A stretch of DNA of 9,540 nucleotides from Sulfurimonas sp. Lineage in GTDB: Bacteria > Campylobacterota > Campylobacteria > Campylobacterales > Sulfurimonadaceae. The notes under the pieces were generated by a model. The model had not been told where the DNA came from. It did no database searches and saw nothing but the letters and a program-made list of their open reading frames with translations. Below are positions 6,655 through 7,966 of the stretch, one piece after another (the first letter of the stretch is position 1; each line of letters opens with the position of its first letter). A program made the position numbers and the translations under genes. Location of the stretch: assembly GCA_022712775.1 (NCBI GenBank), contig JAFLJZ010000251.1, positions 1-9,540 of the forward strand, read 5' to 3'.

Positions 6655-6867
6655 ATGGAAGTGCAAATATCAATAAAAGAAGATAAAGCAGAACTATTTT
6701 TACAAATTTTAAAAGAGTTTAAAAATGATATGGTTGAAAAGTTTCAAATCATTGATTCTAAATATGTTAGTGAAGAAGAACAAAAAGATATAGAAAATAT
6801 TTTAAATTCAAGAACCACAGAGGATAAAGAAGTAGCATCTTCAAAAATAATTAAATTAGATATCTAA
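6655..6867 (+). CDS. Putative antitoxin of a type II toxin-antitoxin pair
   Basis: This small protein has 70 residues. It opens with a short strand (MEVQISIKED) and an amphipathic helix (about 11-28), then carries a charged, probably flexible C-terminal half rich in Glu, Asp and Lys (about 38-65). That layout fits antitoxins that fold on binding their toxin. I see no clear ribbon-helix-helix or helix-turn-helix signature. It has AAAGGA six bases before the ATG. Its TAA is directly followed by the ATG of a RelE/ParE-like gene, and this antitoxin-first order is the main reason for the call. The function is inferred from position. Confidence 0.65.
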   Translation: MEVQISIKEDKAELFLQILKEFKNDMVEKFQIIDSKYVSEEEQKDIENILNSRTTEDKEVASSKIIKLDI

Positions 6868-7155
6868 ATGACAAAAAATATCAAAATAACCTACCTTAAA
6901 AAAGCAAAAAAATTCCTACTCAAAAATTCAAATACAATTACAGAAAATGAAGTTGATAGTTTAATAATATTAGCTATAAAAAAGAAAGTTTATAATATAG
7001 ATGTTAATCTTGATATAAAAGATTTGAAAGAAAATTTAAAAGGTAAGTCTAGAATACGAAAGGGAAAAATAAGAATCATTTTTGAACTTTTAGAAGATGA
7101 ACTGATTATTGAAAGTATAATAGAAGATATTGATTTTAGAGGGAATGTTTATTAA
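6868..7155 (+). CDS. RelE/ParE-superfamily toxin
   Basis: This protein has 95 residues, the usual size for RelE/ParE toxins. The C-terminal half shows the family fold pattern. L-K-G-x-S-R-I-R-K-G-K-I-R-I-I-F-E at 57-73 corresponds to the family's 'L-x-G-x-x-R-x-R-x-G-x-y-R-I-i-y'. A strand pair follows, and the protein ends F-R-G-N-V-Y, like the 'H-R-x-x-V-Y' ending of the family. Basic residues Arg62, Arg64, Lys67, Arg69 and Arg91 and the terminal Tyr95 are candidates for the RNA-cleaving site if it is RelE-like. ParE-type gyrase inhibition cannot be excluded. The ATG abuts the antitoxin stop with no separate ribosome binding site, so translation is coupled. The last four bases overlap the end of the convergent minus-strand gene. 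Confidence 0.78.
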   Translation: MTKNIKITYLKKAKKFLLKNSNTITENEVDSLIILAIKKKVYNIDVNLDIKDLKENLKGKSRIRKGKIRIIFELLEDELIIESIIEDIDFRGNVY

Positions 7156-7547: not shown

Positions 7548-7700
7548 ATGAAAGAAAATGAAGCATTAAAAGAGATAGGTAAAGCAGTTTTAGCCTTTGC
7601 TAATATCTTGACAGCATTATTCTTGGTCAATATATTGATAGTACAACATGGTGGCTTATTAGAAGCTATTGTTCCATTAGTTGGATTCTTATCTATATAA
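7548..7700 (+). CDS. Small membrane protein, 3' end replaced by inserted element
   Basis: This protein has 50 residues and begins MKENEALKEIGKAVLAF. Two hydrophobic stretches (about 13-33 and 38-50) suggest two membrane segments, the second cut short. A GAGG ribosome binding site lies at 7537-7540, seven bases before the ATG. The stop codon (7698-7700) is formed by the target TA and the first base of the inserted repeat element. If the element and one TA copy are removed, the frame continues as YFLGYSMIKKGELNGN and stops at 8012-8014, giving 66 residues. The present gene is therefore probably a truncated form of a longer protein. I do not recognise the family, and whether the short form still works is unknown. 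Confidence 0.65.
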   Translation: MKENEALKEIGKAVLAFANILTALFLVNILIVQHGGLLEAIVPLVGFLSI

Positions 7701-7730
7701 GTAAGAGGGGGAATATAATTTCATAACTAA
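7697..7730. repeat. Left terminal inverted repeat of the element
   Basis: This 34-base arm is the exact reverse complement of 7933-7966 with no mismatch. It begins ATAAGTAAGAGGGGG and ends TTTCATAACTAA. The outermost bases include the presumed TA target duplication (7698-7699), so the true terminal repeat is probably the 31 bases from 7700. Confidence 0.93.
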
Positions 7731-7731
7731 T

Positions 7732-7825
7732 GAGAAGAGAAGATATAAGATACAAGGCGAAAGTACGCAGGAGCTACTAGTAGCTTTAAGGATTTTCAAC
7801 GAAGTAGGTTGTATCTTCTCTTCTC
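7732..7825. repeat. First internal hairpin arm of the element
   Basis: GAGAAGAGAAGAT at 7732-7744 with TACAA at 7751-7755 pairs with a 17-base complement at 7809-7825, leaving a six-base bulge. Smaller elements lie in the loop: the perfect palindrome AGCTACTAGTAGCT at 7772-7785, a GCG/CGC mini-hairpin near 7758-7769, and CAAC/GTTG at 7797-7811. As RNA this would be a long branched arm. It may only reflect the palindromic build of the element, or it may be a folded RNA. Confidence 0.65.
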
Positions 7826-7836
7826 ACCCAAAGGGC

Positions 7837-7934
7837 AACATTTAAAAGGCTCATTTTTTGCGTTAAACTTTCATTAACGATACTCGTATCGCCAATAAAA
7901 GTTTGCCTTAAATCTAAACCTTTTAAATATTGTT
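7837..7934. repeat. Second internal hairpin arm of the element
   Basis: AACA and TTTAAAAGG at 7837-7849 pair with CCTTTTAAA at 7919-7927 and TGTT at 7931-7934 across a 3-base bulge. Further in, AAACTTT/AAAGTTT-like arms (about 7865-7877 and 7892-7904) enclose a strong tip, CGATAC at 7878-7883 and GTATCG at 7886-7891 with a two-base loop. The stem is imperfect but clearly symmetric about 7884-7885. Its base runs two bases into the right terminal repeat. Confidence 0.6.
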
Positions 7935-7966
7935 AGTTATGAAATTATATTCCCCCTCTTACTTAT
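7933..7966. repeat. Right terminal inverted repeat of the element
   Basis: This is the exact reverse complement of 7697-7730. It begins TTAGTTATGAAA and ends CCCCCTCTTACTTAT. The presumed second TA copy is at 7964-7965. Confidence 0.93.

Follow-up and report, generated by a model that had tools for sequence, protein, structure and literature searches.

MITEs are usually seen as remnants of one parent transposon, with conserved ends and a disposable middle. Among other small repeats, some REPIN hairpins are arranged as inverted pairs, and the attC sites of integrons are conserved by structure rather than by sequence, show single-strand polarity, and have the box pair consensus GTTRRRY/RYYYAAC. 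Several described elements resemble the one that we report here. RUP of Streptococcus pneumoniae is an intergenic, MITE-like repeat of 107 bp, whose ends resemble those of IS630-Spn1 and whose target is TA (PMC2229807). Correia/NEMIS, ERIC, RPE, and other bacterial MITEs are non-coding or nearly so, have terminal repeats, and give strongly folding transcripts, and in the CIR elements of Caulobacter and Brucella, a linker connects two long hairpin arms (both in PMC2229807). GTAG REPs, found with RAYT, are small palindromic hairpins that are dispersed in the genome (PMC3733652). TIMEs are Tn3-derived miniature elements, that is, mosaic non-autonomous transposons (PMC4133298).

The locus that we studied lies in a 9,540-nt stretch of DNA from Sulfurimonas sp. 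(the window). It is a single copy of a mobile element without genes that is widespread in Sulfurimonas and related bacteria. The folded centre of this element is nearly constant, and its ends match those of several jumping-gene families. The window carries genes for TruD, for subunit a of ATP synthase, for a molybdopterin oxidoreductase along with iron-sulphur and NrfD-like partners, and for GatB, which is 88% identical to GatB from Sulfurimonas sp. OB5 (genome G001). It also has two small adjacent ORFs (6655–6867 and 6868–7155), which resemble a toxin-antitoxin pair; neither has a Pfam match above the cut-off.

The element's end is 0.2 kb upstream of gatB. Its arms (7697–7730 and 7933–7966) are 34 nt long, 100% complementary, and separated by 202 nt. 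According to the repeat finder, this is the longest of the window's 70 inverted pairs, and the runner-up is 29 nt at 76%. We take the TA at each border as the target duplication, so the element proper is 7700–7963 (264 bp; Table 1). No ORF of 60 or more amino acids overlaps it. A reading of the sequence alone (the sequence-only reading) had pointed out the perfect 34-bp repeat, the TA at both borders, and the lack of coding capacity, and we confirmed all three. Thus, the element has the features that are expected of a MITE: terminal inverted repeats, no coding capacity, and a length within 70–300 bp.

Table 1. Features of the element and of the adjoining ORF, in window coordinates.
Feature	Position	Strand	Basis
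50-aa ORF	7548..7700	+	TAA stop = left TA + first base of element
Left TA, target duplication	7698..7699		sequence position; five related insertions have one TA at the empty site
Left terminal inverted repeat AGTAAGAGGGGGAATATAATTTCATAACTAA, end class A	7700..7730	+	repeat finder; class from 91-element comparison
Hairpin 1 (H1)	7731..7826	+	inverted repeat, arms 7731–7753/7804–7826; fold
Motif M, plus-strand copy	7745..7814	+	covariance model R1, 78.6 bits, E 2.4e-18
Central CCC-AAA-GGG mini-hairpin, centre of imperfect palindrome	7827..7835		sequence, fold
Hairpin 2 (H2), diverged inverted H1 copy	7836..7932	-	arms 7836–7858/7910–7932; shared motif in alignment A1
Motif M, minus-strand copy	7848..7918	-	covariance model R1, 74.2 bits, E 4.3e-17
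Right terminal inverted repeat, identical to left	7933..7963	-	repeat finder
Right TA, target duplication	7964..7965		sequence position

The predicted fold has one outer stem, which encloses hairpin 1, the mini-hairpin, and hairpin 2. The folding energies are −111.6 kcal/mol for the plus strand (z = −13.1) and −121.1 kcal/mol for the minus strand (z = −15.7), and 0/200 shuffles folded as low on either strand: the inverted-repeat fold is far beyond chance. Because hairpins 1 and 2 are diverged reverse complements of each other, the whole element is an imperfect palindrome that is centred on the mini-hairpin. The counterpart of the mini-hairpin is CCCTACGGG in a related locus (L001) and CCCGAAGGG in the consensus, which was computed from an alignment of 79 elements of 240–300 bp after cutting the G001 copies to four.

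The insertion may have shortened the 50-aa ORF: if the flank on the 7548 side is joined to the right flank, then the reading frame stays open. This ORF has no Pfam match, and a search of 135 genomes of the genus found no relative with an uninterrupted site.

Two inverted copies of a shared motif (M) flank the CCCnnnGGG hairpin in the middle of the element. The layout of M is AAGGC-stem-CGCAGGAG-hairpin-CTTCAAGG-stem'-AACGAAG, with two-base apical loops. We chose 42 of 139 M sequences (those from H1, plus those from H2 in reverse) to build an alignment (A1) and a covariance model (R1); both of the window's copies are among these sequences, which bears on their scores in Table 1. In A1, the AAGGC and AACG loops are invariant or nearly so, and 97.2% of the 756 cells are paired, versus 75.4% in shuffles. 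Fifteen of the 18 stem pairs have changes on both sides. None of 500 shuffles reached any of five measures of covariation, which kinship can inflate (as the tool itself warns).

The wobble pairs in these stems have a polarity. On the M strand, G.T pairs outnumber A.C pairs by 64 to 2 in H1 and by 40 to 2 in H2 (104 to 4 overall); in the terminal repeats, which we used as a control, the counts are 61 and 40. Folding without an alignment gave a similar picture, as the M strand folded better than its complement in 64/66 H1 and 70/73 H2 sequences, and the terminal-repeat control split 37 to 22 with 32 ties. One count speaks against the claimed polarity of H2: with RNAalifold on the whole-element alignment, the tip of H2 has 80 G.T and 17 A.C pairs on the plus strand, or 80 A.C and 17 G.T on the M strand. 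This count rests on seven column pairs across mixed classes. We trust it less and set it aside, because both the dedicated alignment of M and the alignment-free folding favour the M strand for H2. Given the covarying stems and the wobbles of one polarity, M probably functions in a folded, single-stranded form with a fixed polarity, and the inverted arrangement supplies one M per DNA strand.

M does not correspond to a known Rfam RNA. Rfam 15 gave a single match in the window between 7400 and 8300, far below the gathering threshold, and in six loci with a solo motif, the only matches above threshold were to the tRNA and SRP RNA beside the motif.

To describe the distribution of the element, we begin with the genus. 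Relatives of the element are present in at least 63/135 genomes (1e-6); this is a lower bound, as 5 candidates were scored per genome. It matched 6/8 of the first genomes that we tried. G001 has at least 37 matches (40 of 60 candidates scored), and a search of G001 for the end pattern gave 78 matches, versus 0 for the reversed pattern. Among the candidates scored, the closest copy to the window's, in G063, is 95% identical and has different flanks. Among gatB loci from 80 relatives, BLAST with the element found matches in three: L001 has a full copy at a different site, 3.2 kb beyond gatB; L040 has a copy with different arms, 1.1 kb ahead of gatB; and L018 has a fragment. R1 found M in three of these 80 loci (L001, L040, and L015) but never within 1 kb upstream of gatB, although 12/80 loci cover less than 1 kb on that side. 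We rejected on these grounds the possibility that the structure is a permanent local feature of the gatB region. The sequence-only reading had proposed a BLAST search for multiple copies, and many dispersed copies exist in the genus; either of the outcomes that it named as contrary, no second copy anywhere or the same structure at this site in all relatives, is contradicted by these results.

We delimited 91 elements with both ends, and most of these are similar in length: 72/91 span 264–272 bp and 79/91 span 260–276 bp. These are spans of the inverted repeats and may include chance pairs outside of the TA; the set omits identical copies and elements with an end score below 16.

More broadly, a 67-nt core consensus matched 12/397 genomes sampled across the phylum. 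The more sensitive model R1 (1e-4) found M in at least 105/398 genomes from the order, with 12 candidates scored per genome; 14 of the 105 are in the genus sample and 91 are not. Nearly all (9/10) of the near-complete genomes had a match to M. Outside the genus sample, 11/21 loci gave a clear inverted repeat, with further end types, and 8 of the 11 span 263–274 bp; we found no M by pattern in 6/21. The element does not appear to be plasmid or phage cargo, as it had only short matches (E of 0.9 or worse), the core's matches in plasmids had E of 2 or worse, and a 23-mer from the core had no exact match in viral contigs.

Motifs that resemble M also occur alone. A conserved 89-nt motif lies after fabH in four genomes (L431, L432, L433, and L434, at 301–389), with no clear terminal repeats around it in these loci. 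The identity of fabH was checked by Pfam in L431; the convergent neighbour, presumably a HIT gene, has no Pfam match. This motif is possibly a domesticated or ancestral form. Another M-like motif adjoins an SRP RNA gene (L435:301–370, in G117), and another is flanked by tRNA-Gly and tRNA-Thr, upstream of a tuf gene (L441:301–369, in G025). We rejected a tRNA-like origin of the solo motif, as two checks, which covered 15 and 6 of 20 loci, found no tRNA at the motif.

We examined the target duplication by joining the flanks of 14 elements with one TA and searching 16 genomes for these empty sites. (Two of 16 elements were skipped because they had no clear TA, and the assessment is based on 30 fetched loci rather than on all matches.) Relatives that span the site were seen for 7/14 insertions. 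For five of the seven (L220, L231, L232, L233, and L239), the empty site in at least one relative has a single TA; for L231, the TA is absent from one of three relatives. L187 has no TA at the empty site, and L235, which is of end class E, is consistent with a duplication of 3 bp (TTA). By eye, L150, L236, L237, and an IS in G028 have matching TTA or TAA flanks. For end class F, 5/8 constructs had spanning matches and 3/8 did not, again judged on fetched loci rather than on all matches. L351 gains 4 nt (TTAA) and L369 gains 3 nt; for L353, L354, and L356, the relatives disagree or the site is equivocal. For the window's own copy, no match crossed the empty-site junction, and parts of it matched in 35/135 genomes (5 candidates scored per genome). 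So, the proposed duplication of TA stands for five of seven related insertions, but we have no empty site for the window's copy.

The ends of the elements fall into classes. The window's class, A, is TAAGTAAGAGGGCATAAATAACTTC; the others are B (TAAGTGCCTGACCATAATAAATG), C (TAAGTACCTCTCCATAAATAACCCC), D (TAAGTCCTTAGTC), E (TACCAATCCC), and F (AAGGGCACCTCTAAAAACCC). Around the same core, we also observed a class G (TAGACTTCTTGC... or similar), in eight elements (L436, L437, L438, L440, L442, L443, L449, and L450), of which six span 269–276 bp.

Several of these end classes resemble the ends of insertion sequences in the same genus. Transposases with PF13358 are found in 20/135 genomes (17 above the cut-off). 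Class B ends are on delimited full ISs in G128 and G129, class C ends are on those in G026 and G027, and class E ends are on one in G028; for these three classes, the ends of the IS and of the element are similar or near-identical. All three of the transposases that we tested against NCBIfam (from G027, G028, and G128) were called as IS630. In L192, L193, L195, and L212, the IS630 transposase is split over two frames, as if it were expressed by frameshifting. For class A, we found a broken IS630 in G001 and another in G120, with ends that are similar but not identical. The best IS630 ends match the window's end at 17–20 of 30 positions and the end of a MITE from G001 at up to 22 of 30.

Class F ends bound ISs of 1,254 and 1,258 bp in G026 and G048. 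The transposase from G048 belongs to IS5 (NF033581, 257 bits versus a cut-off of 140), so the class F relatives have the IS5 ends that would be expected of IS5-family MITEs. The same core also sits between the ends of an IS5-family element.

The core is not itself part of a full IS. At IS loci, core matches were either separate copies alongside the IS (L163/L164) or a fragment at a contig end, by a piece of transposase (L207). The sequence-only reading had proposed a transposase-less MITE of the Tc1/mariner-IS630 type, and the dispersed copies, the five empty sites with a single TA, and the IS630s with related types of ends agree with this. It also expected a full-length IS with the same ends: IS630s with related ends are present in the genus, but among the genus genomes we found no IS that is both intact and identical to the window's copy in its ends. 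As far as it goes, the MITE interpretation is correct, but it is incomplete, as it missed the conserved twin-hairpin core and the travel of this core with unrelated ends.

To compare the core and the ends, we used the 76 of 106 elements that had both pattern matches (the other 30 were left out). Between classes A through E, the H1 motif (plus-strand M) is 84–90% identical and the ends are 46–65% identical, versus 48% for random sequences. Between class F and the others, the H1 motif is 76–78% identical and the ends are 42–55% identical. Most class F elements (20/22) are 264–268 bp long, and the other two are 130 and 56 bp. Among the 20 full-length elements, H1 is within 4–14 mismatches of 51 in 9 and is strongly diverged in 11 (24–29 mismatches of 51, without gaps). 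R1 finds M in 15/19 class F loci and misses four. The two short pieces (L370, 56 bp; L369, 130 bp) have little or no core between their ends, which suggests that M is dispensable for mobility, unless these pieces are deletion products. Other very short derivatives are found at G001:C31:47433–47490, G004:C73:3679–3736, and G008:C44:3292–3350; several are two terminal repeats back to back, with the core absent or reduced.

We also built a tree from 98 of 106 interiors. On this tree, the end class changes 14 times, versus a minimum of 6 for seven labels and 53 for shuffled labels; this is slightly inflated by L110, which was automatically placed in class B even though it clusters with C and D. 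On well-supported branches, no fewer than two changes are forced for class A and no fewer than three for class B, and the tree is compatible with single origins of classes C, E, and F. These counts imply that the ends follow the core in part but have changed more than once. The interior is a conserved palindromic module, with two inverted copies of M around a mini-hairpin, that outlasts its ends.

Overall, we are quite confident in an account in which the element is a 264-bp non-autonomous DNA transposon that is probably moved in trans by resident ISs and whose conserved core keeps M as a folded single strand; a role of M at the RNA level and the exchange of ends are less certain parts of this account. 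We infer, with good support, that IS transposases mobilise the element in trans, presumably by cutting and pasting it. With less certainty, M may act in read-through RNA: it would give a compact fold in either orientation of insertion and might be bound by a putative host RNA factor. This role would keep insertions tolerable, so that the module persists, and the persisting module could acquire new ends by recombination or by arm-templated conversion. A stronger version, which we consider slightly less likely than not, is that the core is a selfish or host-tolerated nucleic-acid module in its own right, which is read from either strand, in the form of RNA or of single-stranded DNA, and which has repeatedly acquired the ends of active ISs. 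It would have taken ends from IS630 subgroups, from IS5, and from further types across the order of Sulfurimonas, as a passenger that hops between transposon families, and it would have left related solo motifs beside fabH, SRP RNA, and tRNA genes.

The asymmetry between G.T and A.C pairs fits RNA and single-stranded DNA alike. An alternative is that M is recognised as single-stranded DNA, for instance at replication forks, by a host enzyme or by a tyrosine or HUH enzyme, and that it serves for recombining the core into new ends, in the manner of attC or REP hairpins. The polarity and the two-base apical loops would suit this as well as they suit RNA, and the exchange of ends requires some route. 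On the other hand, this alternative names no enzyme that acts on M, and by eye, A1 has neither GTAG at the foot of the hairpin, for which reason we also rejected a REP or REPIN, nor the box pair of attC. (An integron attC site was rejected because, judged by eye, only one side of M has AACG, and the other has GGC.) We consider the single-stranded DNA explanation unlikely, but not far-fetched.

It is less probable still that this is an ordinary IS630 MITE family, with a core that is conserved because the copies are young, ends that diverged within one transposase lineage, and no function for M. Many copies are indeed recent, such as those in G001. Classes A through D all start with TAAGT and could be one diverging series, and the forced changes of ends are mainly between A and B; C, E, and F may each have a single origin. 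However, the ends of A and E or of A and F are at the random level of identity (0.49 and 0.46) while their H1 motifs are at 0.87 and 0.76, and class F belongs to IS5, which is another transposase family. The excess of end-class changes over the minimum also argues against this explanation, and neutral palindromes are not expected to have wobble pairs of one polarity. The least probable explanation, that template switching between the arms during hairpin repair is all that keeps the stems complementary, with no selection on M, accounts for the outer arms, which in each class are perfect or almost perfect in the majority of elements, but it predicts Watson-Crick arms on both strands instead of G.T over A.C, and it does not predict the invariant loop letters AAGGC and AACG.

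For the placement of the elements relative to genes, we analyzed the 38 of 91 elements that are in loci of at least 2.4 kb, and allowed overlaps of up to 60 bp. None of the 38 is inside an intact ORF of 90 or more amino acids. Among the 36 with called neighbours, 20 lie between codirectional genes, 12 between divergent genes, and 4 between convergent genes (background: 349, 109, and 31). There is no marked bias in orientation relative to genes for these 36, so a terminator-like role lacks support, and we rejected it. Because the test is blind to genes that were broken by insertion, avoidance of genes by the insertions does not follow from it.

If our account is true, these elements would form a class of non-coding replicators, parasitic on several transposases. 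They would also provide a ready set of natural end swaps for studying how MITEs arise, and a structured motif, of RNA or of single-stranded DNA, that occurs across the order and is open to direct testing. We found no description of these elements in the open-licence literature, where a search for MITEs in Sulfurimonas or the Epsilonproteobacteria led only to unrelated work; the GTAG REP paper names Sulfurovum twice (PMC3733652).

Each of the known systems shares some features with this element. Like M, attC sites are conserved at the level of structure and have single-strand polarity, but their box pair is absent from M. REPINs, BIMEs, and GTAG REPs (for the last, PMC3733652) are dispersed palindromic hairpins, some of them in inverted pairs; REPs are GTAG-tagged units of 20–40 bp, whereas the elements described here have DDE-type ends and a duplication of TA or, in some relatives, probably of 3–4 bp. 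CIR elements have paired long hairpins with a linker, but as presented in the relevant part of PMC2229807, they have no surrounding terminal inverted repeats, and they contain a GANTC motif instead of AAGGC and AACG loops. Correia/NEMIS, ERIC, and RPE are non-coding, with terminal repeats and strong folds; they are about 100–200 bp, and that part of the same source does not describe a common core bounded by classes of ends that belong to unrelated transposases. RUP is also MITE-like, with IS630-type ends and a TA target, but it is smaller and tied to a single IS family, and no conserved inverted structured pair that is carried between IS families is described for it there. TIMEs (PMC4133298) are similarly mosaic and non-autonomous but have Tn3 ends. 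The usual relation within a MITE is inverted in the Sulfurimonas element: the middle is constant and the ends change, even across transposase families.
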